A stretch of 25,110 bases of DNA from a virus. The position numbers and the translations under genes are program-made. Location: the IMG/VR virus record IMGVR_UViG_3300035701_000270, positions 1 through 25,110 of that record; one strand, written 5' to 3'. The notes below the pieces were generated by a model, which saw only the letters and a program-made list of their open reading frames with translations, was not told where the DNA came from and did not search any database. How positions within the stretch are numbered: position 1 is the first letter of the stretch; each line of letters begins with the position of its first letter. Positions 8,408 to 25,108 of this stretch are shown piece after piece.

Positions 8408-8433
8408 CAACTAATAAAATCTCTAACCAATAA
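8378..8433 (+). repeat. Gly-X cassette trailer repeat, copy 1
   Basis: 56 bp identical to 9039-9094, covering the last codons, stop and 3' flank. Identity ends inside the AAAGGTCG box of this copy; copy 2 continues AAGATATG and has no box. Confidence 0.9.
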
Positions 8434-8439
8434 AGGTCG
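8432..8439 (+). promoter_or_regulatory. AAAGGTCG box
   Basis: Followed by GATAATAATAAATAAAC; 29 nt before the ATG of the DUF6948-like gene, which lacks a Shine-Dalgarno site. Confidence 0.55.
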
Positions 8440-8468
8440 GATAATAATAAATAAACAATAAAAATTTT

Positions 8469-8837
8469 ATGAAAGATTCACCAAAAATAATAAAAATAGA
8501 CAATGAGGAGTATATTAAAAAAGATGATTTTACACCAGCAAAAAAAGTAAATGGGTTGGATTATGTAGTAGTCCGCACTTATTCTGCTGGAGTATTCGCT
8601 GGCTATCTTAAAAGCCGTGACGGTAAAGAGGTTAAACTTTTAAATGCCCGAAGAATATGGCAATGGTATGGTGCGGCTTCCTTGTCCCAATTAGCAATGG
8701 AAGGGACAAAAGAACCAGGTAATTGTAAGTTCGCTATGCCCGTCAACGAAATTGACTTAACCGAGGTAATAGAAATAATTTATGCTTCCGAAGAAGCACG
8801 AGGAAATATAGAAAGTGTGCCTATTTGGAAGAACTAA
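8469..8837 (+). CDS. DUF6948-like conserved phage protein
   Basis: A 122-residue protein with the pattern YVVVRTYSAGVFAGYL, then EVKLLNARRIWQWYGAASLSQL, then a C-terminal LTEVIEIIYAS. This matches conserved phage proteins I remember as DUF6948 (RTYSAGV...NARRIW). The fold appears to be a small beta-rich domain; function is unknown. No Shine-Dalgarno; an AAAGGTCG box lies 29 nt upstream. It is sandwiched between the two copies of the Gly-X cassette, and its stop codon is part of the second cassette's leader repeat. Confidence 0.65.
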   Translation: MKDSPKIIKIDNEEYIKKDDFTPAKKVNGLDYVVVRTYSAGVFAGYLKSRDGKEVKLLNARRIWQWYGAASLSQLAMEGTKEPGNCKFAMPVNEIDLTEVIEIIYASEEARGNIESVPIWKN

Positions 8838-8874
8838 AAAAAAATGATAGAAGATAACAAAATTTACTATGGCT
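8833..8874 (+). repeat. Gly-X cassette leader repeat, copy 2
   Basis: Identical to 8166-8207. It includes the stop codon of the DUF6948-like gene, so the duplication boundary falls exactly at the end of that gene. Confidence 0.9.
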
Positions 8875-9068
8875 ATGGCGATGGCTCTGGCGATGGCTAT
8901 GGCTTTGGCTATGGCGATGGCTATGGCTTTGGCTATGGCTATGGCTCTGGCTATGGCTATGGCTATGGCGATGGCTCTGGCTTTGGCTCTAGCTATGGCT
9001 ATGGCGATGGCTCTGGCAATGGCTCTGGCTATGGCTCTGGCGATGGCTATGGCTTTGGCTATGGATAA
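8844..9068 (+). CDS. (Gly-X)n low-complexity protein, copy 2
   Basis: A 74-residue paralogue of the 8177-8407 product: same MIEDNKIYY leader and same ending, one hexamer shorter, with a different order of X residues (Tyr, Asp, Ser, Phe and one Asn). One glycine codon is changed to AGC, giving a Ser-Ser pair. The repeat orders of the two copies cannot be aligned throughout, while the flanks are identical, so the array changes much faster than the flanks. It lies directly upstream of the M23 peptidase. Confidence 0.65.
   Translation: MIEDNKIYYGYGDGSGDGYGFGYGDGYGFGYGYGSGYGYGYGDGSGFGSSYGYGDGSGNGSGYGSGDGYGFGYG
8871..9065 (+). repeat. GGCNNT hexamer tandem array, copy 2
   Basis: About 32 GGCNNT hexamers with NNT being TAT, TCT, TTT, GAT or AAT. 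Same architecture as copy 1 with a different order. Confidence 0.95.
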
Positions 9069-9094
9069 CAACTAATAAAATCTCTAACCAATAA
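9039..9094 (+). repeat. Gly-X cassette trailer repeat, copy 2
   Basis: 56 bp identical to 8378-8433. Its end forms the leader of the M23 peptidase gene, without an AAAGGTCG box. Confidence 0.9.
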
Positions 9095-9097
9095 GAT

Positions 9098-9658
9098 ATG
9101 AAATTTACAAAACCATATAAATCAGCAAATAAAAACCAAATATCCTGTCCTTTCGGGGCAATAGATTTAGCCCATAAAGTGGGACATACGGGAACAGATT
9201 TTTATTCTTCTTACGGGACTTTTTTAGTAGCCCCAGAAGATGTTTTAATAGAGAATATTGTTGACGGCAAAACCATTACCACCACCTATGACGAACTGCG
9301 GAAGGGCTACGGGATTTGTATGATTTCACAGGAAAGTTCGGGCGTTATGCATTTATTCTGGCACTGCCTGCCAGTATTTCCAGTAAAAATCGGGCAGATA
9401 GTAAGACGGGGGGAAATTGTGGCACAGATGGGTAATTCAGGATTAGTCTATTCTGGCGGTGCATTTGTTCCATTAGAAGAAAGGACTAAAACAAAAAAGG
9501 GAACACATCTGCACTGGGAAGTATTCAAGGTTAATTCAAAGGGTACAAGGGATTATTTTGATTGCGTGCCTTGGATAGATTGGAACTTGCCAGTTAATTA
9601 CAATATTATCACGGCAATTAGGAATATACTTTTAACAATGAAGAATATATTTAAATAA
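9098..9658 (+). CDS. M23-family metallopeptidase (endolysin-type)
   Basis: A 186-residue protein. It has the M23 (LytM/lysostaphin-like) zinc site: H30-x3-D34 in GHTGTDFYS, and H137-x-H139 in GTHLHWEVF, with the usual VRRGEIVAQMGNSG turn at ~102-115. It should cleave peptide cross-bridges or stem peptides in peptidoglycan. There is no signal peptide, so export would need a holin or virion delivery. The C-terminal ~25 residues (NYNIITAIRNILLTMKNIFK) form a basic amphipathic helix that might bind membrane. It begins the lysis cluster that also holds a holin-like gene and a lysozyme-like gene. Confidence 0.85.
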   Translation: MKFTKPYKSANKNQISCPFGAIDLAHKVGHTGTDFYSSYGTFLVAPEDVLIENIVDGKTITTTYDELRKGYGICMISQESSGVMHLFWHCLPVFPVKIGQIVRRGEIVAQMGNSGLVYSGGAFVPLEERTKTKKGTHLHWEVFKVNSKGTRDYFDCVPWIDWNLPVNYNIITAIRNILLTMKNIFK

Positions 9659-9662
9659 AAAT

Positions 9663-9833
9663 ATGACAAAAACACAGTGCGATAAATGTAAAAAAGAAAC
9701 AGATAATTATATCCGATATGAAGGGGCGGAATTATGCAAAGATTGTGAAAAAGAATTTCGGGATAGATTAAGCAAGATTAGAATCGAAACAGACAAGAAA
9801 GAAAAAGAACTTCAAAAAGAGTTCGGATTATAA
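9663..9833 (+). CDS. Small zinc-ribbon protein
   Basis: A 56-residue protein: C6-x2-C9 in CDKCKK and C25-x2-C28 in LCKDCEK form a treble-clef or ribbon-type zinc knuckle. A Lys/Glu-rich helix follows, ending FGL. It begins 4 nt after the M23 stop. Likely a small DNA- or protein-binding factor; not assigned to a family. Confidence 0.6.
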   Translation: MTKTQCDKCKKETDNYIRYEGAELCKDCEKEFRDRLSKIRIETDKKEKELQKEFGL

Positions 9834-9849
9834 CATTGCTATCCGACTA

Positions 9850-9989
9850 TCCTGTGGAACTTCCACTCGGCGAAACAGGGCAACTACGGATTAGCTGACA
9901 GGCGATTATCCTAACCTGCCAAAAAGTCCCATTGTAGGGCACAGAGTGGCAGGGGAGGAACAAACGGCAGGATAAGTCGTCCTCCCCTG
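9850..9989. other. Structured non-coding stretch in the lysis region
   Basis: No gene fits 9834-10081. Pairings seen: CCACTC (9863-9868) with GAGTGG (9944-9949) as a closing stem; CAGG/CCTG (9899-9902 with 9915-9918); CCC/GGG around 9928-9939; and CAGGGGAGGA (9950-9959) with TCCTCCCCTG (9980-9989), a perfect 10-bp stem. A local GTGGA/TCCAC hairpin (9854-9866) competes with the closing stem. This suggests a folded RNA, perhaps a leader element or small RNA. No known class recognised. Confidence 0.45.
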
Positions 9990-10007
9990 ACTATGGAAAT
10001 AATGATT

Positions 10008-10015
10008 AAAGGTCG
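10008..10015 (+). promoter_or_regulatory. AAAGGTCG box
   Basis: 66 nt before the holin-like ATG at 10082; an 11-bp hairpin (10033-10071) intervenes, leaving 27 unpaired nt. Confidence 0.5.
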
Positions 10016-10032
10016 CAGTAAATAACGATAAC

Positions 10033-10071
10033 TTGAACTGAAGTACCCATTAAGCGATACCTTCAGTTCAA
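10033..10071 (+). other. 11-bp hairpin in leader
   Basis: TTGAACTGAAG (10033-10043) pairs perfectly with CTTCAGTTCAA (10061-10071); 17-nt loop. It lies between the AAAGGTCG box and the start of the holin-like gene. Confidence 0.8.
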
Positions 10072-10081
10072 AGAGCGATAA

Positions 10082-10252
10082 ATGACAAAATTAACTTTTC
10101 TAACATCAACTCGTTTCTGGGCATTGGTAGCCATAGCTTTAGTTAAGTTATTAGAATCTGAGGCTGTATTAACCCCCGAAGTTTCTAATTCATTGGTAGT
10201 AATCCTTGGTGGCTTCACTGTCATAAGAACAGTTGATAAATTCGTAAAGTAA
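10082..10252 (+). CDS. Putative holin (small membrane protein)
   Basis: A 56-residue protein starting MTKLTFLTSTRFWALVAIALVK, with a first hydrophobic helix at ~11-24, a short polar stretch (ESEAVLTPEVSN) and a second helix at ~37-49, then a Lys-containing end (VDKFVK). Two helices, small size and location between the M23 peptidase and the lysozyme-like enzyme fit a class II-like holin. An AAAGGTCG box and hairpin form its leader. Family not confirmed. Confidence 0.6.
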   Translation: MTKLTFLTSTRFWALVAIALVKLLESEAVLTPEVSNSLVVILGGFTVIRTVDKFVK

Positions 10253-10254
10253 AA

Positions 10255-10667
10255 ATGGGAAAAGAATAGGCTACGCGGTTATACTCCCAGTTATTTTCCT
10301 TGTGCTCTTACTGGGTAATTCCCTGACCGCCAAAGCCCCACAACCTTCAGTTAGCGTGAATTATAATGAGTTATTCCTGAAAGCTGAATATGTACCACCT
10401 ATTGGCGATTTTATGGAGCTGGCTGAAGGCAAATACCCTGAATATGCGAAACTACTCTATTGTATGTGTAAATATGAAAGCAACTTTAATCCTTATGCGA
10501 CAGGAGACCACGGCTTAGCGATTGGTTGGTTTCAGATACACATAGTTGCGCATTATATGTCATATAATTGTGCAACAGACTTGGAATGTTCTATGGCATA
10601 TACTGTAAAGCAGATTAAATCGGGAAATGGTCACTTATGGAGCACATATTATAAATGTTTAAATTAA
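10255..10667 (+). CDS. Lysozyme-like / lytic transglycosylase, start requires -1 shift
   Basis: The C-terminal ~95 residues contain C-K-Y-E-S-N-F-N-P-Y-A and G-W-F-Q-I-H, the catalytic Glu region and the GxxQI motif of the SLT/lysozyme-like fold, with several Cys that may pair outside the cytoplasm. A textbook signal peptide (GKRIGYAVILPVIFLVLLLG, then TAKA) precedes it in the same frame but has no in-frame ATG. ATG 10255 reads M-G-K-E-stop. A -1 shift at GGGAAAA (10257-10263) would join M-G-K to the signal peptide. Otherwise the first usable start is GTG 10302, which truncates the signal peptide. A missing G in the assembly would also explain it. Confidence 0.7.
10257..10263 (+). promoter_or_regulatory. 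Candidate -1 frameshift heptamer GGGAAAA
   Basis: In the frame of ATG 10255 the heptamer reads G GGA AAA, the canonical X XXY YYZ arrangement, similar to GGGAAAG in lambda G-GT. A zero-frame TAG follows two codons later at 10267-10269. The -1 frame continues as the signal peptide and enzyme. Confidence 0.4.
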
Positions 10668-10671
10668 TATT

Positions 10672-10782
10672 ATGCCAAAAACAGCAACTCCGGTCTTAGA
10701 TCCGGAGGAAAAAACAGAAGAGGAGGAAGATGAGGAGGAGGATGAGAGTGAGGGTTTCGATCCCTCTCCTGACGATTGGTAG
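10672..10782 (+). CDS. Tiny acidic protein
   Basis: A 36-residue frame, MPKTATPVLDPEEKTEEEED and 16 more residues, ending in PDDW. It is extremely acidic from residue 11 on. It begins 4 nt after the lysozyme-like stop and is the last plus-strand gene before the convergent terminator. Acidic phage mini-proteins can be DNA mimics or inhibitors; here that is only a possibility. Confidence 0.45.
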   Translation: MPKTATPVLDPEEKTEEEEDEEEDESEGFDPSPDDW

Positions 10783-10965
10783 TCTTTTTCTGGGCTATAC
10801 CTGACCCCTAGGGAACTATATTTTTTACGGGTAGTCTTCTTATAAAAGACCCGGAACATTCTTTTTAGGCTCTATTGCCACAAATTTCCCTATACGGTTA
10901 TGGGTAATCTGGATAACACAAAACCCCCGTTTTATCGAGGGTTTTTGTGTTTGGGAAAGCAGGTT
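10783..10965. other. Convergent intergenic region
   Basis: No gene seen. It holds a weak hairpin (GTCTT..AAGAC near 10835-10851) and the bidirectional terminator at 10916-10953, between plus-strand lysis genes and the minus-strand operon. Confidence 0.6.
10916..10953. terminator. Bidirectional intrinsic terminator
   Basis: ACACAAAACCC (10916-10926) pairs with GGGTTTTTGTGT (10939-10950), one bulged base. It is T-rich on the 3' side of both strands. It sits between the ends of converging operons, as expected for a shared terminator. Confidence 0.75.
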
Positions 10966-11298
10966 TTATAACTGCATTATCTCTATCTTAATATTATTCT
11001 CCTTGCCTAATACTTTCTGCGCCTGCAATAAATAAACCCTTCTGTCATCATAGATATACCCTTTCTTGGTAATAATATCCAGTATCGGCTTGATGAAGTT
11101 GTCTAAGTCGCAGTTATTCGGCTTCTGCAGGGCAAAGGTTAGATTGACAGCAACCTGTCCGTCTATTCTCTTTTTCTTGGGCAGGCGCAGGAGCATCTCC
11201 TGCTCAAATACCTTATACGCTCCGGTCTTGAAACGGCGACCCTGCCAAATTTGATTTACGGATAAGGGTTTAATATCTACTTTTACATTTATATTCAT
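10966..11298 (-). CDS. RusA-family Holliday junction resolvase
   Basis: A 110-residue protein. The start KPLSVNQIWQGRRFKT is the typical N-terminal strand and loop. The acidic catalytic set is D64-x-D66-N-F-I-K70 with D74, and D84-D85 in IYDDRRV, matching RusA endonucleases (DxDN..K..D and DD). Length is close to the family norm of about 120. It should resolve branched DNA during phage replication or packaging as a dimer. It is the last gene of the minus-strand operon, next to the shared terminator. Confidence 0.85.
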   Translation of the reverse strand: MNINVKVDIKPLSVNQIWQGRRFKTGAYKVFEQEMLLRLPKKKRIDGQVAVNLTFALQKPNNCDLDNFIKPILDIITKKGYIYDDRRVYLLQAQKVLGKENNIKIEIMQL

Positions 11299-11315
11299 AC
11301 GCTTTACAATTTACT

Positions 11316-11525
11316 TTACAATTCTTTCTTATCACTTGCTGATTCCTTTTCTTTCTTCTCGGTTATTATAATCAGCTTTCCTTCTTCCGTGTTAATCGAT
11401 TCAAAGTTATATCTCTCCTGATTCCAGATATTGTTATTGGCACGGAAAGGCATTATAACCTCAAATTTCTCCCTCTTGAAGACATTTTCCATATCTTCTG
11501 GTCTTGTATGGTTATTGTTATTCAT
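11316..11525 (-). CDS. Small hydrophilic protein
   Basis: A 69-residue protein starting MNNNNHTRPEDMENVFKREK and ending in a Lys/Glu-rich tail (EKKEKESASDKKEL). The ATG overlaps the nuclease stop as ATGA. The middle (FEVIMPFRANNNIWNQERYNFE) looks beta-rich. No family recognised. Conservation of the overlap supports it as a real gene. Confidence 0.6.
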   Translation of the reverse strand: MNNNNHTRPEDMENVFKREKFEVIMPFRANNNIWNQERYNFESINTEEGKLIIITEKKEKESASDKKEL

Positions 11526-12052
11526 AATTTCTTAAGTTCCCGATGGAACTTCCTTAATTCTCTTTGAATTATTTCCCATAACATAGGGCAGGGTCTGTAT
11601 TCATAGAACAAGGGATTATTCCATTCTTTTACATACCCCACATACACGGGTTTATTAAATAGACGATGCTGGGCTTCCAGTTGCGGTCTGTGCCATTCCT
11701 TAATACTACCCGGCAATATCATAGGTGCTTTCAGTTCCAATATGCGATCTTCTAAGGAGAAATCAGCTATGGCTACAAGAACGAAATCGTCTATCTTAAG
11801 CTCTTTCTTCTCCTGATATTCATACTTAATTTCGTTGTAATCAAGAATTTTCTTAAGAGTGTCCTCCTTTTCAATGCCTCTCTGGATATGAGAACAAGAT
11901 AGCAGGTTTTTCTTTGCGTCCTTAAGGAAATTCTCGGGGAGTAATTCTCCCGTCATTATTGCCCATAAATCAGAGACCCAATAACGCCCTACTTCTCTTT
12001 TATGCGCACTTTCCCGATTTACATATTTTTTTAGCAGTTCCTTGAGGTTCAT
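11522..12052 (-). CDS. PD-(D/E)XK nuclease (Cas4/RecB-like)
   Basis: A 176-residue protein. The core pattern is an early G-I-E-K-E-D (residues 59-64), then A-I-A-D97-F-S-L, E106-L-K108-A-P, and W-H-R-P-Q-L-E-A-Q128, matching motifs of RecB/Cas4-type PD-(D/E)XK exonucleases (D..ExK followed by a Q-containing helix). No four-Cys iron-sulfur set was seen, unlike true Cas4. A DNA end-processing role in phage recombination or replication is likely, next to RusA. The first 53 nt overlap the end of the upstream gene. Confidence 0.75.
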   Translation of the reverse strand: MNLKELLKKYVNRESAHKREVGRYWVSDLWAIMTGELLPENFLKDAKKNLLSCSHIQRGIEKEDTLKKILDYNEIKYEYQEKKELKIDDFVLVAIADFSLEDRILELKAPMILPGSIKEWHRPQLEAQHRLFNKPVYVGYVKEWNNPLFYEYRPCPMLWEIIQRELRKFHRELKKL

Positions 12053-12194
12053 TTTCTTTTTTTCCCTTAATATGGTCTATCAGCTCTTTTACGCTATCCA
12101 GACTTAACTCATTTTCTTGTTTGAAGCGTATGCTCAATATTTCACACTCTATTTCGTTTAATATGCAATATATCTTTAGTTTATATGTTATCAT
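12000..12194 (-). CDS. Small protein, MITYKLKIYC start
   Basis: I place the start at 12194 (64 residues) because the longer form from 12224 would overlap the upstream gene further. The chosen ATG overlaps it by only 14 nt. Residues 1-25 look like a strand and helix (TYKLKIYCILNEIECEILSIRF), followed by a helix and a basic tail with two Cys (KKICKSGKCA). Function unknown. Confidence 0.5.
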   Translation of the reverse strand: MITYKLKIYCILNEIECEILSIRFKQENELSLDSVKELIDHIKGKKENEPQGTAKKICKSGKCA

Positions 12195-12423
12195 CTTTAT
12201 TGTCGTTTTTATTTCCCTTCGCATTGGGGAAATTAAACTCGGTTGCCTGTTCTTCTACTTCCGGTGGAGCATAACTAAAGGCGTAGTCTATTGCTTTTTT
12301 GCATACCTTCAACACCTCTTCTATGATCGGGTCTTTCTCAGCTCCGCACTTTATAATATAACTATTAACGCACTTGCAGAATAATTCTCTTTTCTCCTTA
12401 AGATTCCAATTTTGATCTTTCAT
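12181..12423 (-). CDS. Small helical protein with Cys residues
   Basis: An 80-residue protein, MKDQNWNLKEKRELFCKCVN onward, with an N-terminal helix carrying C-x-C, a second helix (IIEEVLKVCKKAIDYAFSYA) and an Asn/Lys/Asp-rich tail. It overlaps genes on both sides by short distances. No recognised domain. Confidence 0.55.
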   Translation of the reverse strand: MKDQNWNLKEKRELFCKCVNSYIIKCGAEKDPIIEEVLKVCKKAIDYAFSYAPPEVEEQATEFNFPNAKGNKNDNKDDNI

Positions 12424-12580
12424 TTGTTTTTATTTTATTTTTTTTAATATCTTCTTCCCACTCCCTACAATCTCTACATCTCCACGAGGGCTTATTTTCT
12501 TTGCTATAATTCCAAGTCCTCATTTCTTTTATCCAATAATGCTTATGGGGTGGTTGTGGTTTAGGTTTATTCCAGAACAT
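12398..12580 (-). CDS. Small zinc-knuckle-like protein
   Basis: A 60-residue protein starting MFWNKPKPQPPHKHYWIKEM. H12/H14 and C36-x2-C39 (WRCRDCREW) could ligate one zinc ion. It is basic and Trp-rich. The ATG is 39 nt past an AAAGGTCG box that lies inside the end of the upstream gene. It overlaps the next gene by 26 nt. Function unknown. Confidence 0.55.
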   Translation of the reverse strand: MFWNKPKPQPPHKHYWIKEMRTWNYSKENKPSWRCRDCREWEEDIKKNKIKTNERSKLES

Positions 12581-12581
12581 A

Positions 12582-13151
12582 TTAGAATTTCTTTTCTATT
12601 TCTTCAGCTTTGTTTATTTCGACCTTTGGAATTCTATGCCTCGATTGGCAGACCTTGCATATTGCCCAGAATTCTATGATATGGGTGCACTCCTGCAGGT
12701 CTGACAGAGGCATATCTCTGACTCTTAACATCTTTTTAAACTCTGAATCAGAAGGAGCGGAACGCGCCATACCTACCAGCTCATCCACCTTCTTCCTGTC
12801 TTTTACATCACCCCCTTTTAATAGTGGAACTGCAAGGGCTAAGCGCGAGTAGTGTATGTCCTCTAATTCTGAAGTCTTGTATTTGTAGTATTGGATAAAT
12901 ATATGGTAGAGGTCGATATAACGCTCTGCTGTTCTCCGAGATCCGTAGAACTCCCTTGCCCACAATTCCCAAGTATAAGTGCCATCCGTATCTTTATAAT
13001 AATAGAGTTTCCTATCTTTAATCTGTCCTAATAGAGAGCCAATTCGCCAATGGTTCTTAATCTCTTCGCGGTGATATGAGCGTAATCGCTCTTCTAAGTC
13101 GTGCAATTCCTCCGCTTTACGCTGTAATTTCTGCTGTTGTAGGTCTGCCAT
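12582..13151 (-). CDS. Putative DNA-binding protein with C-terminal Cys/His cluster
   Basis: I choose ATG 13151 (189 residues, MADLQQQKLQRKAEELHDLE) over the longer open frame because GGAGG lies 9 nt upstream and the extra N-terminus would overlap the preceding gene. The order is a coiled-coil N-terminus, then a helical region with HWRIGSLLGQI and GSRRTAERYIDLYHIF that resembles the helix-turn-helix style of phage DUF3102/ParB-like proteins, and near the C-terminus C-x-H (ECTH) and C-x2-C-x3-H (CKVCQSRH), a possible zinc finger. The last codons contain an AAAGGTCG box that appears to serve the next gene. Confidence 0.55.
   Translation of the reverse strand: MADLQQQKLQRKAEELHDLEERLRSYHREEIKNHWRIGSLLGQIKDRKLYYYKDTDGTYTWELWAREFYGSRRTAERYIDLYHIFIQYYKYKTSELEDIHYSRLALAVPLLKGGDVKDRKKVDELVGMARSAPSDSEFKKMLRVRDMPLSDLQECTHIIEFWAICKVCQSRHRIPKVEINKAEEIEKKF
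12620..12627 (-). promoter_or_regulatory. AAAGGTCG box inside coding sequence
   Basis: Minus-strand AAAGGTCGAAATAAACAAAG, encoding Lys-Val-Glu near the end of its host gene, 39 nt before the ATG at 12580. Confidence 0.45.
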
Positions 13152-13497: not shown

Positions 13498-13711
13498 ATT
13501 TTCCCTTGAATAAGTTATTTAATTCTACGAGTATAGAAGCCATTTCACCTTGAGGGAAAGCGTGCATTATTGCTTCTGCGATAAGTTCATATGGCATAGC
13601 CGGTTTCTCTCTTAGGGCTCTTAGATAGCCCACTATACCGACATATTGTGCATTTCTCTTTCTCATAAGAGTTTCCCTCTCCTGTAAATACCCTCTTTGT
13701 AATCTTGGCAT
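13481..13711 (-). CDS. Small basic helical protein
   Basis: A 76-residue frame from ATG 13711 (MPRLQRGYLQERETLMRKRN). An in-frame ATG at residue 16 follows a purine-rich AGGAGAGGG and is an alternative start. The rest is helical (YVGIVGYLRALREK, YELIAEAIMHAF, MASILVELNNLF). It is first in its sub-operon, after the structured intergenic region. No family recognised. Confidence 0.55.
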   Translation of the reverse strand: MPRLQRGYLQERETLMRKRNAQYVGIVGYLRALREKPAMPYELIAEAIMHAFPQGEMASILVELNNLFKGKYGEPS

Positions 13712-13986: not shown

Positions 13987-14355
13987 CTATAACTCATCAC
14001 TCTCTTCTTCTATAACCGGTATCTTAACATCCTGATCCATTGGAACTAAAGTGAGGACATCTGTTTTCTTGCCAAAGGCGAGCATTTCAATAATGGTAGC
14101 CCTTAAAGGTATATTCATCCATTCTCTGCTATCTGTGCCAAGGCTCTCGCTTAGAGTGCGAATAGTGGTGTTATTCATAGTATATGTCTTGATTTCCTTA
14201 TTCGGTAGCCTCATCTCAAATTGTAGAACTTTTTTAGTCTTTCCGTCAACTCCCTTGATTTCTTTCCACTCTCCTTCTGTTATCAGGTCAACTATATCTC
14301 CATCTTTAACATTGACTCCGGCCTTGCAAAATGACGAGGGAATAATTATCTCCAT
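13987..14355 (-). CDS. Hypothetical protein, possible OB-like beta fold
   Basis: A 122-residue protein starting MEIIIPSSFCKAGVNVKDGD. It is beta-rich: GDIVDLITEGEWKEI, KKVLQFEMRLPNKEIKTYTM, PLRATIIEMLAFGKKTDVLTLVP, with an acidic tail (EEESDEL) like those of single-stranded DNA-binding proteins. That and its place in a replication/recombination operon make an OB-fold or DNA-associated role possible but unproven. An AAAGGTCG box lies 30 nt before the ATG, and there is no Shine-Dalgarno. A conserved hairpin follows the stop. Confidence 0.6.
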   Translation of the reverse strand: MEIIIPSSFCKAGVNVKDGDIVDLITEGEWKEIKGVDGKTKKVLQFEMRLPNKEIKTYTMNNTTIRTLSESLGTDSREWMNIPLRATIIEMLAFGKKTDVLTLVPMDQDVKIPVIEEESDEL

Positions 14356-14356: not shown

Positions 14357-14548
14357 TTATTTATTTTTATTATTTGTATTATCTACGACCTTTGGCTTTT
14401 TAAATAAACCTTCCTTCTTTGCTATCTGTTGCACTCTCTGCCGTGAGATAGAATAAAACTCTCCAATTTCCTTAAAGGTTCTATTCCTTTTTACTGCCTC
14501 TATAATTGTTTTGTTTCTTTCGGGCTTTGCCCAAGGATATCTATTCAT
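14357..14548 (-). CDS. Mini protein with sigma-70 region 4-like helix-turn-helix
   Basis: A 63-residue protein. Residues ~22-47 (NRTFKEIGEFYSISRQRVQQ, then IAKKEGL) match the region 4.2 helix-turn-helix of sigma-70 factors (T..EIg..f.vsr.RVrQI). No region 2 is present, so it cannot be a full sigma factor. It could be a small transcription regulator or a factor acting on host RNA polymerase. It has its own near-consensus promoter at 14575-14602 and sits one base from the next gene. Its C-terminal codons carry the AAAGGTCG box used by that gene. Confidence 0.65.
   Translation of the reverse strand: MNRYPWAKPERNKTIIEAVKRNRTFKEIGEFYSISRQRVQQIAKKEGLFKKPKVVDNTNNKNK
14386..14393 (-). promoter_or_regulatory. 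AAAGGTCG box inside coding sequence
   Basis: Followed on the minus strand by TAGATAATACAAATAATAA; 30 nt before the ATG at 14355, which lacks a Shine-Dalgarno site. Confidence 0.5.
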
Positions 14549-14814: not shown

Positions 14815-15096
14815 TTATTCTTGATAGAAGTTAGGCGCGTCTTTTGGCGACATTATTTCTATCATTTTATTTTCTTCGGTAAAGTCTATTGGCTCTTCAG
14901 CTTCTCTTTGGGAGTTTAGCTCGTCTATCATAGCTTCTTCCGCCTGTGCTTTATCTCTGCATTGAGGACAGAGCCATATTGCTCTTTCCTCTCCGTTTCT
15001 CTCTCTATCACCGACAAGCCACTCTCTTCCGCAATCAACACAAGGAATCCTCAATTTACTATTTTTTAAATTGGCTATAAATTTATCTATTGTCAT
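14815..15096 (-). CDS. Zinc-ribbon protein, first gene of the minus operon
   Basis: A 93-residue protein. C-V-D-C-G (residues ~19-23) and C-P-Q-C (~43-46) make a classical zinc ribbon, followed by a long acidic helix (KAQAEEAMIDELNSQREAEE). It resembles small phage or archaeal transcription-related zinc ribbons but is not assignable. It is the first gene of the minus-strand transcript from the promoter at 15302-15329, with a leader of about 200 nt and an AAAGGTCG box 30 nt before its start. Confidence 0.65.
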   Translation of the reverse strand: MTIDKFIANLKNSKLRIPCVDCGREWLVGDRERNGEERAIWLCPQCRDKAQAEEAMIDELNSQREAEEPIDFTEENKMIEIMSPKDAPNFYQE

Positions 15097-15126: not shown

Positions 15127-15134
15127 CGACCTTT
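15127..15134 (-). promoter_or_regulatory. AAAGGTCG box
   Basis: Minus strand, followed by TAGTTAAATAATAACAT; 30 nt before the ATG at 15096. It lies about 165 nt inside the transcript from the 15302-15329 promoter. Confidence 0.6.
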
Positions 15135-15301: not shown

Positions 15302-15329
15302 AGTATAGCTCGTCAATAAGGGCTGTCAA
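15302..15329 (-). promoter_or_regulatory. Sigma-70 promoter for the minus operon
   Basis: Minus strand TTGACA (15329-15324), 16-nt spacer, TATACT (15307-15302). Predicted start near 15295, where a GGGCTTTAATGCTC hairpin would be the first structure of the RNA. Confidence 0.7.
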
Positions 15330-18862: not shown

Positions 18863-20544
18863 GTGCAGAATTTATACACGAGGATTTTCCAAAAGCATAT
18901 AAAGCTCCGACTATGGATACTCCGGATGCCAATTTGATTTCCATAGCTTCGGCTTGGTTTCAAGAAAGTAAAAGGTATCATACTGAGCTTGAAAGAATCT
19001 GGAAACAGAATGAAGATTATTATAAAGGCAAACAGACCTTTATGGAACGAGTACCTGCCGATATGTCCAATACTGTTCAGAACCAGATATTTATGGGAAT
19101 TGAAACTATAGTTCCCATTATAACTGCCAATCCTCCGCAGTTTATTGCAGAACCTCCGGAAGAATCCGATACTTCGGTTGAATATGCCGATGCACTTCAG
19201 AAAGTTCTTGGGATACACTACGAGACAAAAGATGTCAGGACTAACGGGGAAATGCTTGTCAGGCATATGCTTATTTATAGGTATGGTTGCTGGAAGGTTT
19301 ATTGGGACGAAAGGGAAGACGATGTAGGTTTAAAAACTATCAGACCCCAGAGATTATATTTCCCGAAGGTTGCGACAGAATTACCATATATAATGGAACA
19401 GATGGATATTACTTCCGAGGAATTTAAAGAGATATGGGGAGAAGAAAAATTTAAAGAGTTTCTTACTCACGGAGGTCAGGAGTTTGACCCCAATCTACTG
19501 GAGAAAGTTGCAGGCATCTGGACTATCTGGGAAGTGTGGACGAAAGATATGGTCTTCTGGAAGTACGGTTCAATAATAATTGACAAGCAGGAAAACCCGC
19601 ATTACGATTTTAATAATAAGAAAAAGAATCATTTTATGTATCCGAAGATTCCGTATATTATAGCTTCCGTTTTTAGACTCGGAAATTCGGTAGTCGGGGA
19701 AACAGACTTAATACAACAAACAATTCCCATTCAGGATACAATCAATGTTTCTGCCCGTTTAGTAATAAATAATGCAAATAAAACTGGAAATGCCCAATGG
19801 TTTGTAGACAATCAGATCGGTTTGTCCGAAGAGGAGGTCAGGACGAAAATCACCAATGCTCCGGGACTCTTAATATATGGGTCAGGAGTGGCCAACCCCA
19901 ACCTTTTGAGGCGCGATCCTCCGCCTCCTCTTCCGGCATATATCCAAGAATTAAAGTTAATGGCAGAAAACGCCTTTGATAATATCTTTGGGACGCACTC
20001 AACTACACGGGGAGAAAGACAGTCGCAGGAAACTCTTGGTGGAAGATTATTACTCAAACAGGCAGACCTTGGCAGAATTGACCTTATCGTACGGGAATTT
20101 GAAAGATGTGTTGCGGAACTTGGAAACTGGTTCACCCAGTTGATGAAATTAAATTATGCATCCAAGAGAACCTTCAGGGCTTATGGAGAAACCGGTATTA
20201 CCTTCGTCAAACTGATGAAAGATATGATTGAGGAGGGTATCAAGGTTATTATAAAATCTGGAACTACTCTTCCTACAGATGAACTTTCAAAGAGAAGAGA
20301 AGCTGTGGAATTATGGGGAATGGGAGCTTTAGATCCCGTAACTCTATTTGAGAGACTCAAATTTTCCAATCCGGAAGAGGCAGCCCAGAGACTACAAGCT
20401 TGGAGAATGAATCAATTAAAAATGGAGGCCCAAATACAGGGTACAGTTGGTCAGCAACCAACGGGAGGACAAGGTCGGCAGACACAACCACTACCTTCCC
20501 CACAGAGGGAGGTAGGTAAAATGGAGGGTAAAATAACAAAATGA
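18859..20544 (+). CDS. Portal protein
   Basis: A 561-residue protein right after the terminase block. The N-terminal half ([40 protein letters not shown], then [17 protein letters not shown]) is characteristic of P22/phage head-to-tail portal proteins. The centre has a long helical wing/stem and the C-terminus is Gln/Pro-rich. It forms the dodecameric DNA channel at one capsid vertex. The last 75 nt include an AAGGTCG box and a hairpin that seem to belong to the leader of the following gene. Confidence 0.85.
20471..20477 (+). promoter_or_regulatory. AAGGTCG box (7-mer) in portal 3' end
   Basis: 63 nt before the ATG at 20541. A hairpin (20491-20515) lies between and would leave 38 unpaired nt. 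Confidence 0.3.
20491..20515 (+). other. Hairpin in portal 3' end
   Basis: CTACCTTCCC (20491-20500) with GGGAGGTAG (20507-20515), one bulged T, 6-nt loop; within coding sequence. Confidence 0.6.
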
Positions 20545-20882
20545 TTTACTCATTACCTAAAAGATTTAAATTATTACAGGCTAAACAGGAATCATTAAAG
20601 GCGGGAGCAAAGGCAAAATATACGTCTAGTTTTGGTGGGATGACAAAAGCATTTCTTGGAGAATTGCCATCAGCTACAAAACAAGTCTTTAGTGCACCAT
20701 TTAAGGCAGCCAAAGTTACTGGTGGAGTGATAGGTGCAGCTTTAAGTAAGAATGTCAATTTTGATAATTCAGATAAAAACGAACTTAGGTTTAGAGCTGA
20801 GAATTTAAGAAAAATAAGAGATGCATCTCAGAAGTACCAAGAAAGCCATCCGGGTTTTAAAGTACCGAGAGAGATGCGATAA
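20541..20882 (+). CDS. Small basic head-region protein
   Basis: A 113-residue protein whose ATG overlaps the portal stop as ATGA. It is Lys/Ala-rich with short hydrophobic stretches (AKVTGGVIGAALSKNV) and a C-terminal helix (ENLRKIRDASQKYQESHPGF). It may be a minor virion protein. No family recognised. The gap to the next gene is only 4 nt. Confidence 0.6.
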   Translation: MIYSLPKRFKLLQAKQESLKAGAKAKYTSSFGGMTKAFLGELPSATKQVFSAPFKAAKVTGGVIGAALSKNVNFDNSDKNELRFRAENLRKIRDASQKYQESHPGFKVPREMR

Positions 20883-20886
20883 AACA

Positions 20887-21030
20887 ATGCCGGCACAATT
20901 TGAAGCGTGCGTAAAATCAGGAGGAAGGGTTCGCACTATTAAACCCAAGAAAGGGACTTATATTCACGTTTGTTATAAGGGTGGAAAATCGTATTCTGGG
21001 GAGGTTCACCATAATCCAAAGAAGAAATAA
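20887..21030 (+). CDS. Small conserved Gly/Lys-rich protein
   Basis: I start at ATG 20887 (47 residues, MPAQFEACVKSGGRVRTIKP) because the longer frame overlaps the preceding gene heavily. The pattern F..CVKSGGRVRT...Y.HVCYKGGKSY.GEV resembles short proteins that recur in phages and archaea; I cannot name the family. It has two Cys and a beta-hairpin look, and a TAATG overlap with the methyltransferase. Confidence 0.55.
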   Translation: MPAQFEACVKSGGRVRTIKPKKGTYIHVCYKGGKSYSGEVHHNPKKK

Positions 21031-21563
21031 TGTCAAATGTAAGGCAACAACTGGAGGATTGGTTGCGTAAGATAGATGTATCTGGAACTGTTCTAGATGT
21101 GGGAGGTGCGGGACGACTGGTAACCGACAGGACGAAGAGCTGGCAGGTTTCCGATTATAAGGTTCTGGATATTCAGAACGATGCTGATTATATCAGGGAT
21201 ATAAATTATCCGGTAAATGATGTCCCACAATTTGGAACTATCTTCTGTCTTGAGGTAATGGAATATATCTGGAATCCGGTACAGACCTTGAGGAATATGA
21301 GGAAATGGCTTAAAGATGACGGACTTTTATACATTTCTTTCCATTTCTTATTTCCGCATCATTCACCAAAAGACAAAGATTATTTAAGATATACATCAAA
21401 GGGAATCAGGAAACTGATGGAAGAAACAGGATTCCGTATTTTAGAGATAACTCCCCGTATGGCCAAAGATTTACAGCACCTAAAACAGTGGTGCGATGAG
21501 GAAAGCAAGGTTGTGAACTATGGGGGAGAAATAGGATATTTGATAAAAGTAAAAAAGAAATGA
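21030..21563 (+). CDS. Class I SAM-dependent methyltransferase
   Basis: A 177-residue protein. V-L-D-V-G-G-A-G (about residues 21-28) is the SAM-binding motif I, V-L-D-I-Q-N-D at ~45-51 is the acidic motif II, and IFCLEVMEYIWNPVQTLRNM plus WLKDDGLLYISF match Methyltransferase type 11 proteins. Such phage enzymes often modify small molecules, lipids, sugars or RNA; no DNA-methylase NPPY motif is present here. It is embedded in the head cluster between portal and scaffold and coupled to the next gene, itself a methylase. Confidence 0.75.
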   Translation: MSNVRQQLEDWLRKIDVSGTVLDVGGAGRLVTDRTKSWQVSDYKVLDIQNDADYIRDINYPVNDVPQFGTIFCLEVMEYIWNPVQTLRNMRKWLKDDGLLYISFHFLFPHHSPKDKDYLRYTSKGIRKLMEETGFRILEITPRMAKDLQHLKQWCDEESKVVNYGGEIGYLIKVKKK

Positions 21564-21946
21564 AAGATATCAAGGTGATGTTTTCAAGCCAAAGATTGGA
21601 TTGGAAAACTCCTAAATATCTTTACGAGGAATTAAACAAGGAATTTAATTTTGATTTTGATCCCTGTCCTCCCAATCCGCCTTTCAATGGTTTGGAAATT
21701 GAATGGGGTAAAAGAAACTTTGTTAATCCTCCTTATGGTAGAGAAATCGGAAAATGGATTAAAAAGGGATTTGAAGAATGGTTAAAAGGTAAATTGGTGG
21801 TGTTTCTTATCCCTTCAAGGACAGATACAATCTGGTGGCACGATTATGTAATGAAAGCAAAAGAAGTCAGATTTATTAGAGGAAGATTAAAATTTAATGA
21901 TCAGAAAAATTCAGCACCATTTCCAAGTTGTATAGCAATTTTTTAA
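21560..21946 (+). CDS. Phage DNA N-6-adenine methyltransferase (Dam-type, PF05869-like)
   Basis: A 128-residue protein. W-K-T-P near the start, F-D-P-C-P at 33-37, and F-V-N-P-P-Y-G at 54-60 (the catalytic NPPY) followed by FLIPSRTDTIWWHDYV and EVRFIRGRLKF are the signature of the small phage Dam family. It should methylate adenine N6 in phage DNA, likely to evade restriction. Coupled by ATGA to the preceding methyltransferase. Confidence 0.85.
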   Translation: MKDIKVMFSSQRLDWKTPKYLYEELNKEFNFDFDPCPPNPPFNGLEIEWGKRNFVNPPYGREIGKWIKKGFEEWLKGKLVVFLIPSRTDTIWWHDYVMKAKEVRFIRGRLKFNDQKNSAPFPSCIAIF

Positions 21947-21953
21947 AAATGAT

Positions 21954-21961
21954 AAAGGTCG
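21954..21961 (+). promoter_or_regulatory. AAAGGTCG box
   Basis: Seven bases after the Dam stop; 65 nt before the chosen scaffold ATG (22027). The hairpin at 21988-22015 intervenes, leaving about 37 nt. Confidence 0.5.
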
Positions 21962-21987
21962 TTTAAATAATAAGAGTAAATCCAAAC

Positions 21988-22015
21988 CCGAAACGGGCAT
22001 CAATGCTCGTATCGG
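21988..22015 (+). other. Leader hairpin of the scaffold gene
   Basis: CCGA (21988-21991) with TCGG (22012-22015) and ACGGGCAT (21993-22000) with ATGCTCGT (22003-22010, one G-U). A competing CCCG-AAA-CGGG hairpin (21987-21997) is possible. Confidence 0.6.
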
Positions 22016-22026
22016 ACGGTATCAAA

Positions 22027-22578
22027 ATGGAAAACGAACAACAAGACCAAACCTCCGAAGAGACCCCATCAAAGGAAACCTCCGAAGAGACGGCACCAGT
22101 GGAGGAAACGATTACAATTCCCAAAGCAAAATGGCAGGCTTCCCAAGAGGAAGGAATCCGTCTAGCTAAAGAATTGGAATCAAGGGAGAAAGCGAAAGAG
22201 GCAGAAATTCCTGAAGAGGAAAAGAAATTGCGGGAAGTGATATCTAGGTATGAGAAGGAACGGGAGTCTTCCGCGATGAAATTATTGCGGGAAGAAGCAA
22301 GGAAGCTCGATGAGCTAGAACAAATCCACGGATCCTTTAAACGTGATGAGTTCAAAAAATTCCTTGACGATTATCCCACCTTCGATATTGAAGGTAATAT
22401 AGACTATCACAAGGCTTATCAACTCTATGAAAGAGTCCAGTCTGCACCCGCAATTCCAAAGAAAAAAACACCTTCTTCTGCAAGGACTGGAGATGTTCCA
22501 CGTAAAGAAACCTACAATGTGCAGGATAAAAATATGTGGGATATTCTTAATGATGCAAAAAAGGAAATTCAGGACTAA
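22027..22578 (+). CDS. Capsid scaffolding protein
   Basis: A 183-residue protein from ATG 22027 (MENEQQDQTSEETPSKETSE). The frame also opens at 22003, but that ATG lies inside the leader hairpin. Highly acidic Glu/Thr/Ser N-terminus, then a Glu/Lys-rich coiled coil (residues ~50-105), and a C-terminus with Lys/Pro. This composition and the position directly before the major capsid protein are typical of scaffolds. It shapes the prohead and then leaves. Confidence 0.8.
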   Translation: MENEQQDQTSEETPSKETSEETAPVEETITIPKAKWQASQEEGIRLAKELESREKAKEAEIPEEEKKLREVISRYEKERESSAMKLLREEARKLDELEQIHGSFKRDEFKKFLDDYPTFDIEGNIDYHKAYQLYERVQSAPAIPKKKTPSSARTGDVPRKETYNVQDKNMWDILNDAKKEIQD

Positions 22579-22586
22579 CCTCTAGG

Positions 22587-22594
22587 AAAGGTCG
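22587..22594 (+). promoter_or_regulatory. AAAGGTCG box
   Basis: 25 nt before the major capsid ATG. Here a GGAGG Shine-Dalgarno site (22608-22612) is also present. Confidence 0.55.
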
Positions 22595-22619
22595 GAATTA
22601 AGATTTCGGAGGTAATAAA

Positions 22620-23636
22620 ATGGCATTTAGTGCGTTTGTAACGACAATCACGCAGGATAAGTTCGTACCGAAAGTCGTTGACAATATTTTGAGAGGGAAC
22701 GTACTTTGTATGAGGTTCTTGGGGCAAAACTCAAGACCTTGGGGTTCAGGACACGTCTTGAATGTCCCAATCAAGTACCAATCATCTACTTCTGGAGGTT
22801 CATATGCCGGTTTTGACACACTGTCAACAACCCAGATGAATACCAGAGTGTTAGCCCAATTTAGTCCAACGCAGAACTACTTTTCAGTTGTTATTTCGGG
22901 AATACAACAGGCCGTCAATAAAGGCGATGCTGCTGTCCTCGATTTATTAGCAACAGAAATGTCATCTGTAGCAGACGATATGGCTAATGGATTAGGTACT
23001 CAATTATACTCAGACGGTTCAGGAAATAGCTCAAAAGACATTACTGGATTAGACGCAGCCGTTGATGATGGTAATACTACAGCATCTTGGGGCGGATTGA
23101 ACGGGTCTACAACCTACACCACGTGGGTTTCGACTCTGACATCCAACACGGGTGCAATTAGTGTAGCCAATCTAGCTAGCGCTTACAATTCAGCAAAAGT
23201 CGGGAGTGATATTCCAACCTTGATTATAATGACAAAGGCTATCTGGAACACTTACGAAGGTCTCTTACAAGCAACCATTAACTATCATACGCAGGTACAA
23301 GGATACCCGAAGATGACCGCTTTCGGCATTAACAGAAATGGCGGAACGGGTCAGACAGGAGATATAGGGTTTGATACTCTATTCTTTAGGGGAGTTCCTA
23401 TAGTTGCGGATGAAAAGTGTACAGCAGGTAGAGTTTATCTGTTGAACGAAAAGCACTTATGGTTTGCTCGTTTAGATCATCCTAAGTATCCAGCAGGCGG
23501 AAACCAATTCGGTTTCGCTTGGACAGGTTTGAAAGAACCTACCAATCAGGACGCTTCGGTCGGACAATTCTTGCTCTATGGACAACTAGTCGGCGATTCT
23601 CGCCGAACACACGCCTATATGACTGGTAAATCCTAA
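22620..23636 (+). CDS. Major capsid protein
   Basis: A 338-residue protein after the scaffold. It begins MAFSAFVTTITQDKFVPKVV and has an N-arm with LNVPIKYQSSTSGGSYAGFD, then QNYFSVVISGIQQAVNKGDA and MSSVADDMANGLGTQLYSDG, then the A-domain-like FRGVPIVADEKCTAGRVYLL and HLWFARLDHPKYPAGG. This matches HK97-fold coat proteins of environmental phages. It assembles the icosahedral head. A good Shine-Dalgarno and an AAAGGTCG box precede it. Confidence 0.85.
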   Translation: MAFSAFVTTITQDKFVPKVVDNILRGNVLCMRFLGQNSRPWGSGHVLNVPIKYQSSTSGGSYAGFDTLSTTQMNTRVLAQFSPTQNYFSVVISGIQQAVNKGDAAVLDLLATEMSSVADDMANGLGTQLYSDGSGNSSKDITGLDAAVDDGNTTASWGGLNGSTTYTTWVSTLTSNTGAISVANLASAYNSAKVGSDIPTLIIMTKAIWNTYEGLLQATINYHTQVQGYPKMTAFGINRNGGTGQTGDIGFDTLFFRGVPIVADEKCTAGRVYLLNEKHLWFARLDHPKYPAGGNQFGFAWTGLKEPTNQDASVGQFLLYGQLVGDSRRTHAYMTGKS

Positions 23637-23640
23637 TACT

Positions 23641-24108
23641 ATGGCAACTTTATCTGGAAGATCACAAATCTTCGCTGGAGATACATCTTTAATAGATACT
23701 ACCGCCCAACACAAATTAGGCACACGAGCCTTTGATGTGGATGGAAATGAGTATATCTATTTAGCAGGTGTAGCCTCTGTTGCTGCAGGTACTTGGGTTA
23801 GTTTCGATGAAGCTTTAGCAACCACTCGTTTAACCACCAACTGTGTTGGTAGAGTGGCTATTGCTATGGCTGCTATCGTTGCCAGTTCATACGGTTGGTT
23901 TCAGATATACGGCAAAAATGAAATAGCCGTTGTAGCTGATATCGAGGCGGATGTAGCCCTATTCACCACTGGTACTGCAGGAACAGCAGATGATGCTGAT
24001 ACTGCTAACGAGATGATTATAGGTGCATTTTCGCGAAGTGTGGACGCTGCAGGTATTGCAACAGTGGAACTTAATTATCCATTTGTTTGCAACGTAGCAA
24101 TAGACTAG
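23641..24108 (+). CDS. Capsid cement/decoration-like protein
   Basis: A 155-residue protein 4 nt after the coat gene. Gly/Ala/Thr-rich beta sheet: LGTRAFDVDGNEYIYLAGVA, SSYGWFQIYGKNEIAVVADI, FTTGTAGTADDADTANEMII, ending VELNYPFVCNVAID. This pattern is common in small proteins directly downstream of phage coat genes annotated as head decoration or cement. I infer it stabilises the capsid surface. Downstream lies a long hairpin. Confidence 0.6.
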   Translation: MATLSGRSQIFAGDTSLIDTTAQHKLGTRAFDVDGNEYIYLAGVASVAAGTWVSFDEALATTRLTTNCVGRVAIAMAAIVASSYGWFQIYGKNEIAVVADIEADVALFTTGTAGTADDADTANEMIIGAFSRSVDAAGIATVELNYPFVCNVAID

Positions 24109-24117
24109 CGTTGATTC

Positions 24118-24170
24118 CAAACTTGATCTCCCTTTCGCTTGTGGCTGGAGGAGAAGGGGAGATAGGTTTG
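24118..24170 (+). other. Long hairpin downstream of decoration gene
   Basis: CAAAC (24118-24122) with GTTTG (24166-24170) and ATCTCCC (24126-24132) with GGGAGAT (24157-24163), separated by a small internal loop; loop of 24 nt. No T-run follows, so a partial terminator, processing site or RNA stabiliser is more likely than a full intrinsic terminator. Confidence 0.65.
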
Positions 24171-24182
24171 CAATTAAAAATA

Positions 24183-24190
24183 AAAGGTCG
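24183..24190 (+). promoter_or_regulatory. AAAGGTCG box
   Basis: 25 nt before ATG 24216; followed by GAGGATTTAAATAATAA. Confidence 0.55.
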
Positions 24191-24215
24191 GAGGATTTAA
24201 ATAATAAAAAAGAAT

Positions 24216-24539
24216 ATGAATTTCTACGAATTAAAAGCGGTCTATAATCCTCTAAGTGAGGATGTAATAATTACTTGTTCATCTCCTGCAGATAATGAGG
24301 GAGAAGAATATGTAATTGAAGCAAAAGGAATAATTCTATTGCCAGCAACAATCGCCAAAGCTGCTGCCTTGAGTGTTGCAAGGGAGGTCTTGCAAAAGCA
24401 CGGCAAGGAATTTGACGATCCTAGCAGACAGGAATTAGAGGAGGAAATTTTATCTCATCAGTTTGAGATTATAGATTCAACGAGGGGGGTTGGGACAATT
24501 AAGGAGGAAGTCCCAATAAAAAAAGGAGGAAAGAAATAA
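24216..24539 (+). CDS. Hypothetical head-region protein
   Basis: A 107-residue protein starting MNFYELKAVYNPLSEDVIIT. N-terminal beta-like half (VIITCSSPADNEGEEYVIEA), a helix with AKAAALSVAREVLQKHG, an acidic segment and a Lys-rich end (KEEVPIKKGGKK). It follows the decoration gene and may be a head-completion or minor structural protein. No family recognised. Its leader carries the AAAGGTCG box and no Shine-Dalgarno. Confidence 0.6.
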   Translation: MNFYELKAVYNPLSEDVIITCSSPADNEGEEYVIEAKGIILLPATIAKAAALSVAREVLQKHGKEFDDPSRQELEEEILSHQFEIIDSTRGVGTIKEEVPIKKGGKK

Positions 24540-24541
24540 AT

Positions 24542-24549
24542 AAAGGTCG
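24542..24549 (+). promoter_or_regulatory. AAAGGTCG box
   Basis: Directly after the previous stop; 115 nt before the HNH ATG. Two hairpins (24560-24583, 24586-24632) fill 71 nt of that, leaving 44 nt. Confidence 0.5.
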
Positions 24550-24559
24550 ATTTATCTTG

Positions 24560-24632
24560 CTCAGGCTTCAATCGAAGTCTGAGTTGGGAAACATAGAGAG
24601 GCCAATTCCTCCTAGGCTAAACTAGGTTTCCC
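24560..24632 (+). other. Two-hairpin structured leader of the HNH gene
   Basis: CTCAGGCTTC (24560-24569) with GAAGTCTGAG (24574-24583): 10 bp with one G-U, loop AATC. Then GGGAAAC (24586-24592) with GTTTCCC (24626-24632) enclosing GAGG/CCTC and CTAG/CTAG mini-stems, a possible three-way junction. Confidence 0.7.
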
Positions 24633-24664
24633 TATTGAGATTTTGATTGGAATTTTAATTCTTA

Positions 24665-25108
24665 ATGAGAAATAAATTAGGTCAGTTCAAAAAGGGATGT
24701 AAGTGGACTTCTGAAGTGAGAGAAAAAATTCTACAAATTCGGAAACGAAAAGGAATAATATTACCAAGCAGGAAGGGGATAAAATGGTCAGAAAAATGGA
24801 AGAGAGAAAACGGTAAAAAAATAAGAAATTTTTATTTAAGAAAGGGGTATAAAAGCAGAACGGGATGTAGAGCGTATATTCTTGAGCGAGATAATTATAT
24901 TTGTCAGGTTTGTAAATTTAGAGAACCAGACATAATGGATGTCGACCATATAAAACCAGTAAGTCTTTTTCCTGAATTACAATATGACCTTGATAATTTA
25001 ACGACCCTATGTCCTAATTGTCATCGTAGAAAAACTTTAGAAGACCAAAGAGAGGTTTTACGAATAAGAGGTCATTGGAAAAAAAATAAATTAAAGGTCG
25101 AAAGATAA
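24665..25108 (+). CDS. HNH homing-type endonuclease
   Basis: A 147-residue protein. The N-terminal 55 residues are basic and contain KGIKWSEKWKRENGKKIRNF, similar to NUMOD3 DNA-binding modules of homing endonucleases. The HNH core follows: C80-x2-C83, D94-H95 in DVDHIKPVS, N111 in DLDNLTTLC, and C116-x2-C119-H120. All key residues are present. It likely cuts DNA at a specific site and is a self-mobile passenger in the head cluster. The leader is the two-hairpin element; the last codons contain another AAAGGTCG box that would serve the next gene outside the window. Confidence 0.85.
   Translation: MRNKLGQFKKGCKWTSEVREKILQIRKRKGIILPSRKGIKWSEKWKRENGKKIRNFYLRKGYKSRTGCRAYILERDNYICQVCKFREPDIMDVDHIKPVSLFPELQYDLDNLTTLCPNCHRRKTLEDQREVLRIRGHWKKNKLKVER
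25093..25100 (+). promoter_or_regulatory. AAAGGTCG box at window edge
   Basis: Lies in the last codons of the HNH gene (Leu-Lys-Val-Glu-Arg-stop). The next gene start is beyond the window. Confidence 0.4.

Follow-up and report, generated by a model that had tools for sequence, protein, structure and literature searches.

The window analysed here is the whole 25,110-nt stretch at positions 1 to 25,110 of IMG/VR virus record IMGVR_UViG_3300035701_000270. The part of its proteins that was scanned includes a terminase, a P22/SU10-type portal protein, a major capsid protein and other phage proteins, and several of its genes are preceded by the same 8-nt box, AAAGGTCG. The box is real and strict, and it marks gene leaders in some Patescibacteria as well as in phages presumed to infect these bacteria.

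Box sites in the window and related phages

Exact copies of the box number ten in the window, compared with 0.56 expected from dinucleotide shuffles, and none of 100 such shuffles held ten or more. All ten lie in the sense orientation relative to the next gene. When up to one mismatch was allowed, 29 matches were found against 18.4 expected, so that the exact word makes up nearly all of the excess. A first-pass annotation of this DNA had listed the ten positions, had described the box as always in the sense of the downstream gene, and had estimated less than one chance copy on both strands; each of these statements was borne out. The four copies that it had placed in the final codons of a preceding gene came down to three (12627, 14393 and 25093). 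The distance to the next gene, measured from the box to the ATG of an open reading frame (ORF) of at least 50 codons, was 33–49 nt for seven copies, and reached 74 nt (10008) and 123 nt (24542) for two others, both with folded spacers.

Protein similarity led to seven related sequences (G001, G002, G003, L024, L025, L027 and L028). One of them, G001, is a record of the same virus (99–100% identity) and runs past the window end. G002 and G003 show about 64–73% DNA identity to the window over matched pieces, and the capsid protein of L024 is 79% identical to that of the window over the matched part. The box occurs seven times in G002, four times each in G003 and L024, and three times each in the more distant L027 and L028; the 4.9-kb fragment L025 has none. 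With the orthology of small genes judged by position and by eye, the window, G002, G003 and L024 were compared gene by gene. The scaffold-like gene and a structured leader have the box in all four, the capsid gene in all but G002, and the gene at the place of 24216 in all but G003. The first-pass annotation had named box-less orthologues as evidence that would tell against its reading: many orthologous genes keep the box, the exceptions being the capsid gene of G002 and the G003 gene at the place of window 24216. Two G002 copies stand apart, 27340, which precedes no gene, and 33458, which lies inside a short ORF. Over 189 leaders from eight viral contigs, two of which had been chosen because of their boxes, we counted 31 sense and 0 antisense copies with 0.34 expected, and single-mismatch forms occurred three times.

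Viral contigs were also scanned with the box followed by TTAAATAAT, which gave 112 stretches, of which 80 were listed and counted. Most of these 80 hold a single copy, probably by chance. Two contigs, which came to light through the motif and were chosen for their many copies, are much richer: L074 has eight copies in 7.1 kb (0.09 expected) and L046 six in 11 kb (0.14 expected), in each case all on one strand. L074 shares one detectable gene with the window (a 176-aa gene, 36% identity), and no common gene was detected between L046 and the window.

The box in Parcubacteria-type genomes

The first-pass annotation missed that the box belongs to cellular genomes too. Scanning a genome collection with a similar pattern yielded at least 117 stretches, 80 of which were listed. 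Six of the matches listed carry Parcubacteria-type titles (Nomurabacteria twice, Wolfebacteria, Staskawiczbacteria, Parcubacteria and Paceibacterota). Candidatus Paceibacterota corresponds to Minisyncoccota in the NCBI listing, and we take the Nomurabacteria, Wolfebacteria, Staskawiczbacteria and Parcubacteria to belong to the same radiation. Among the matches listed, the motif stood 25–59 nt ahead of an ATG-initiated ORF of at least 60 codons in 3 of the 6 Parcubacteria-type stretches, compared with 11 of the 74 others.

The Paceibacterota genome G004 (495 kb read) was reached through a motif match. It contains 22 boxes, 13 of them in sense at 27–73 nt before a called gene start, with two of the 13 inside an overlapping ORF. 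Counted over positions −80 to −20 of 468 genes, AAAGGTCG tops all 8-mers in enrichment (12 copies, 0.55 expected); apart from its own shifts, no rearrangement of its eight letters occurs more than three times in the leaders of this genome. Its 492 leaders hold 10 sense and 0 antisense copies with 0.24 expected, and five single-mismatch forms. The comparison of leaders with other sequence proposed in the annotation thus came out with far higher counts in leaders. The genes served in G004 include those for ribosomal protein S13, HU, a type IV secretion system pilin, an N-methylated pilin, MscL, an MscS-like channel and peroxiredoxin. In G088, a genome picked for its high box count, 30 of the 53 sites were read, and about half of these looked leader-like by eye, including sites before GroES-like and MscS-like proteins. 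Stretches of G006 and G007 were chosen around known box sites.

We then surveyed the class with the pattern of a box 15–45 nt before WWWATG. In the 35 genomes searched both ways, of 285 searched in sense, there were 151 sense and 71 antisense matches; 22 genomes had more in sense and 8 more in antisense. G004, one of the 35, had 11 and 1. Eight unrelated bacteria, found via motif matches, gave 59 sense and 62 antisense matches. These survey counts suggest that some members of the class use the box and others do not. Total genome counts were discarded as a measure because they are no lower for the reversed word.

Spacer length and folding

Among 42 sites with a spacer of at most 53 nt, the median length was 37.5 nt, with a 10–90% range of 32–47 nt. 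These short spacers are largely unfolded, with a median folding energy of 0 and only three at −3 kcal/mol or lower. Twelve leader sites had spacers of 56–124 nt, and nine of them fold such that at most 8 of 200 shuffles were as stable; four of these nine represent one orthologous leader (window 24550–24664). In the consensus of its four sequences, 16 of 32 pairs show a compensatory change. L027 9828 is not in an ORF and was counted among the long leader spacers as a miss. Five in-gene sites were set aside from the spacer set; one of these, G004 137096, is 42 nt short of the end of a 278-codon ORF, with the next ATG 29 nt downstream, and may represent a genuine leader. The clustered short spacers, the nine folded long spacers and the one covarying leader indicate a constraint on start-codon spacing at the level of RNA.

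The 5' half of the leader 24550–24664 contains a possible local hairpin, CTCAGGC...GTCTGAG, which would compete with the long-range consensus pairing, and a switch between the two folds is possible. Scanning the window and L024 against Rfam returned no known RNA family at gathering score.

Such alternative hairpins would suit another explanation, namely that the box is the target of a regulator, an RNA-binding protein or a small RNA, which represses or switches a regulon that the phages have joined. The small number of genes per host genome and the very strict word would also fit. The genes served are mixed, however, comprising a ribosomal protein, a chromatin protein, pilins and channels, and phage capsid genes are unlikely targets of repression. 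We regard this explanation as very improbable.

Promoters relative to the box

Some phages place one short late-promoter box before each gene, and the box resembles such promoters in being one strict short word ahead of several structural genes with an A/T-rich flank. It might accordingly be a DNA promoter element recognised by an alternative RNA polymerase or by one that the phage has modified, and transcripts would then begin immediately downstream of it. The fixed word, the fixed orientation, the A/T-rich sequence that follows, the several late genes each with a copy, and the several copies directly after terminator-like hairpins would all be expected of such an element.

We therefore located −10-like boxes. 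In 36 host leaders, 20 lay upstream and 8 downstream of the box, the upstream ones at 3–42 nt from it. The upstream ones would place the box within, or at the start of, their host transcripts. In 30 phage leaders the counts were 6 upstream and 5 downstream. In G004, a −10-like box was present in the same interval at 10 of 16 box sites, compared with 146 of 454 other starts. L074 has two boxes 5 and 19 nt downstream of TTGACA...TATAAT promoters. In the window, the annotation had placed a clear sigma-70 promoter ahead of the 15127 copy, and a sigma-70-like one is present (TTGACA, 16 nt, TATACT); its likely transcript would reach the box after about 160 nt. Other boxes are internal to operons, and some overlap the ends of preceding genes.

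The sigma-70-like promoters upstream of several boxes, at variable distance, argue against a promoter, as do the leaders of cellular genes, since the box is not restricted to phages. Folded long spacers are not predicted by a promoter as such, though 5' hairpins can also protect messages. Inspection of the ORFs by eye, in part over the first 60 residues, and family scans of part of the proteins brought up no polymerase or sigma factor. In view of this evidence we give the promoter a minor chance.

A box within the transcript could also act in mRNA processing or 5' stability, as a ribonuclease cut site or the binding site of a protective protein. In many host genes it lies close to the probable 5' end, hairpins follow it in some leaders, and copies occur inside polycistronic phage operons, all of which is consistent with this. 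An element of this kind needs no fixed distance to the start codon, yet the short spacers cluster at 32–47 nt, and we consider it improbable.

Shine-Dalgarno sites and 16S rRNA

GGAG-type Shine-Dalgarno sites were found in 2 of 38 window ATG genes of at least 60 codons and in 20 of 492 G004 genes, in agreement with the earlier remark that most box-served genes lack one. Four box-served genes (in the window, G003 and L024) also have a separate GGAG site. The box itself shares with the Shine-Dalgarno sequence a short purine-rich word upstream of the start, on the same strand and with limited spacing, and its AAAGG is complementary to the final CCUUU of a canonical 16S tail. A Shine-Dalgarno site lies 5–10 nt from the start codon, or within about 4–12 nt of it at the widest, whereas the box stands about 33–47 nt from the ATG and its remaining UCG does not fit. 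A Shine-Dalgarno variant was thus rejected on spacing (median 37.5 nt) and poor complementarity.

Comparison with host 16S rRNA, as the annotation had advised, was made for two 16S genes. Pairing of all eight letters was rejected, no full complement being present in either. On the G006 16S contig C1, the three exact-word sites share the strand of the 16S gene, and hence there is no full complement on the rRNA strand. Judged by eye, AAAGGTCG also appears on the sense strand of the apparent 5' part of the 16S gene in L272 and L277 (Nomurabacteria G009 and G005), probably a coincidence.

Two 16S tails lack CCUCC, that of G006 continuing as GGATCATTTAAATT and that of G004 as GTGAAACTTTTC; G008 has GGATCACCTCC. 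The G004 16S match is partial, and both G004 and G006 are metagenome bins. Box-led genes are present in both genomes despite these tails. A link between the box and loss of the anti-Shine-Dalgarno sequence was rejected, as G018, G019 and G193, with canonical tails, have 9, 7 and 13 sense matches. The canonical tail pattern was matched in 56 of 285 class genomes, where a miss may mean a bin without 16S (16S was matched in 3 of 6).

Features of the window and its relatives

The coordinates of the box sites and adjoining features are collected in Table 1.

Table 1. Box copies and associated features in the 25,110-nt window
Feature	Coordinates	Strand	Context
Box AAAGGTCG	8432..8439	+	37 nt to ATG of 122-aa gene 8469–8837; also in G001
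Box	10008..10015	+	ATG at 10082, 74 nt away; stable hairpin in spacer, −12.8 kcal/mol, 0/200 shuffles as low
Box	12620..12627	−	About 13 codons from end of 252-aa gene; 47 nt to ATG of gene 12398–12580
Box	14386..14393	−	In last codons of 63-aa gene; 38 nt to ATG of gene 13987–14355; G003 arranged likewise
Box	15127..15134	−	38 nt to ATG of gene 14815–15096; about 160 nt into likely sigma-70-like transcript
Sigma-70-like promoter TTGACA-16-TATACT	15302..15329	−	Upstream of box 15134
Box	21954..21961	+	Ahead of scaffold-like gene 22003–22578; also at that place in G002, G003, L024
Box	22587..22594	+	33 nt to major capsid gene 22620–23636; also in G003, L024; absent in G002
Box	24183..24190	+	33 nt to gene 24216–24539; also at that place in G002, L024, not G003
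Box	24542..24549	+	Ahead of structured leader; arrangement repeated in G002, G003, L024
Structured spacer, box 24542 to next start	24550..24664	+	−38.6 kcal/mol, 0/200 shuffles as low
Box	25093..25100	+	In last codons of HNH ORF 24665–25108; next gene beyond window

The scaffold-like gene may alternatively start at an ATG further in. The capsid gene matches the PHROG major head protein. The gene after box 25093 was seen in the near-identical G001, 38 nt from the box.

At 24542–25108, an HNH endonuclease ORF lies between the structured leader and the gene that directly adjoins this leader in G002, G003 and L024. In the virus of the window, the latter gene has its own box at 25093. Two small copies of a Gly/Tyr/Ser-repeat protein (8177–8407 and 8844–9068), both beginning MIEDNKIYYG, flank the gene served by box 8432. 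The contig ends of G001 map to window 13,038 and 15,582, leaving the 2.5-kb stretch between them outside the G001 contig; one contig end lies in short TAGTG-type repeats, and an assembly gap is likelier than a deletion.

In L024 (4983–6678) the capsid ORF follows its family only up to residue 315 (NQDASVG), and its end is overlapped by an HNH ORF, which suggests an intron or similar insertion; this segment matched no Rfam family at gathering score. Judged by eye, L017 (G001 20001–40000) carries a run of ORFs resembling glycosyltransferases, methyltransferases and sugar-nucleotide enzymes, and at L019 4718–7858 a VWA-domain-like protein of G002 adjoins a MoxR-like ATPase.

Discussion

The box keeps a steadier distance to the start codon than to the promoter, and most of the long spacers are folded, which argues for a signal read in RNA and linked to the start codon. 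We lean towards the view that AAAGGUCG is a cis-acting 5'-leader RNA element promoting translation initiation of selected genes in a Parcubacteria-type lineage and in phages presumed to infect it. It would act from about 33–47 nt upstream of the start codon across an A/U-rich, unfolded spacer, and a hairpin would shorten the longer spacers. Since the genes served include those for capsid protein, pilins, HU and S13, the box is taken to raise the translation of proteins that are presumably abundant, and the genes it serves are probably highly expressed. As neither 16S gene examined holds a full complement, the likely reader would be a dedicated protein or a ribosomal component. The first-pass annotation had preferred an RNA role to a promoter. 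The spacing, the folding of long spacers and the variable distance to −10 boxes support this preference in part, with translation as the best fit; the function itself is a prediction from sequence patterns.

Several observations weigh against a role in translation initiation. The box leads only about 3% of G004 genes (14 of 492) and is therefore not a general start signal, and the G002 capsid gene does without it. When the whole pattern of the class survey was reversed, 136 matches were obtained in the same 35 genomes, near the 151 in sense; we weighted the antisense control above this one because it keeps the word itself. A clear −10 box is missing at six of the 16 host box sites, exact TATAAT occurs 6 times upstream and 4 times downstream in the phage leaders, and the position of some boxes directly after terminator-like hairpins is one that a promoter would also predict. 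Three of the twelve long leader spacers (G004 12157, G004 46089 and L027 9828) are not unusually stable, and the in-gene site G002 33458 also folds unusually well. Besides the lack of a full eight-pair complement in both 16S genes, the 7-of-8 pairing sites, with wobble allowed, lie at different places in the two. No trans-acting factor for the box was identified.

Among known systems, A/U-rich translational enhancers and ribosome standby sites are similar in their place ahead of the start region and in the unfolded A/U-rich sequence after it, to which S1 or the 30S subunit could bind. We know of no fixed word in these systems, whereas the box is an exact 8-mer kept across phages and cells. A bolder form of the translational reading is tentative, and we find it doubtful rather than probable: Parcubacteria-type bacteria may possess a second sequence-specific code of ribosome recruitment, in which AAAGGUCG, about 35 nt upstream, would be read by a ribosomal component or bound factor independently of the anti-Shine-Dalgarno sequence, across a single-stranded or hairpin-shortened spacer, in highly expressed genes. 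Phages would have adopted this code, and it would persist where the 16S tail has lost CCUCC.

In the phage collection, the capsid and portal proteins of the window come closest to those of a phage assigned to candidate division TM7 (capsid 31%, portal 27% identity); the TM7-assigned phage has 0 box copies. On the basis of the shared box and this distant similarity, the phage of the window presumably infects a Parcubacteria-type lineage. No prophage or other direct link between phage and host was found; a capsid profile matched 0 of 188 class genomes and was run without a positive control, so that this empty answer shows nothing.

In the accessible parts of the literature on translation initiation in Patescibacteria, Parcubacteria and the Candidate Phyla Radiation, mostly in journals open without subscription and including PMC10582724, PMC9723584 and PMC12641178, there was no description of the box among the papers listed, and none of the titles listed for texts containing AAAGGUCG or AAAGGTCG concerned such an element. 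The leader element is apparently undescribed.

The Patescibacteria are a large, mostly uncultured part of the bacteria with reduced ribosomes, and how they choose their start codons is a live question, given the very few Shine-Dalgarno sites in the genome G004. A strict word common to their cells and phages offers a handle on this choice. The box is also a possible marker for linking metagenomic phages to Patescibacteria hosts, and its leader is one to try in expression tools.

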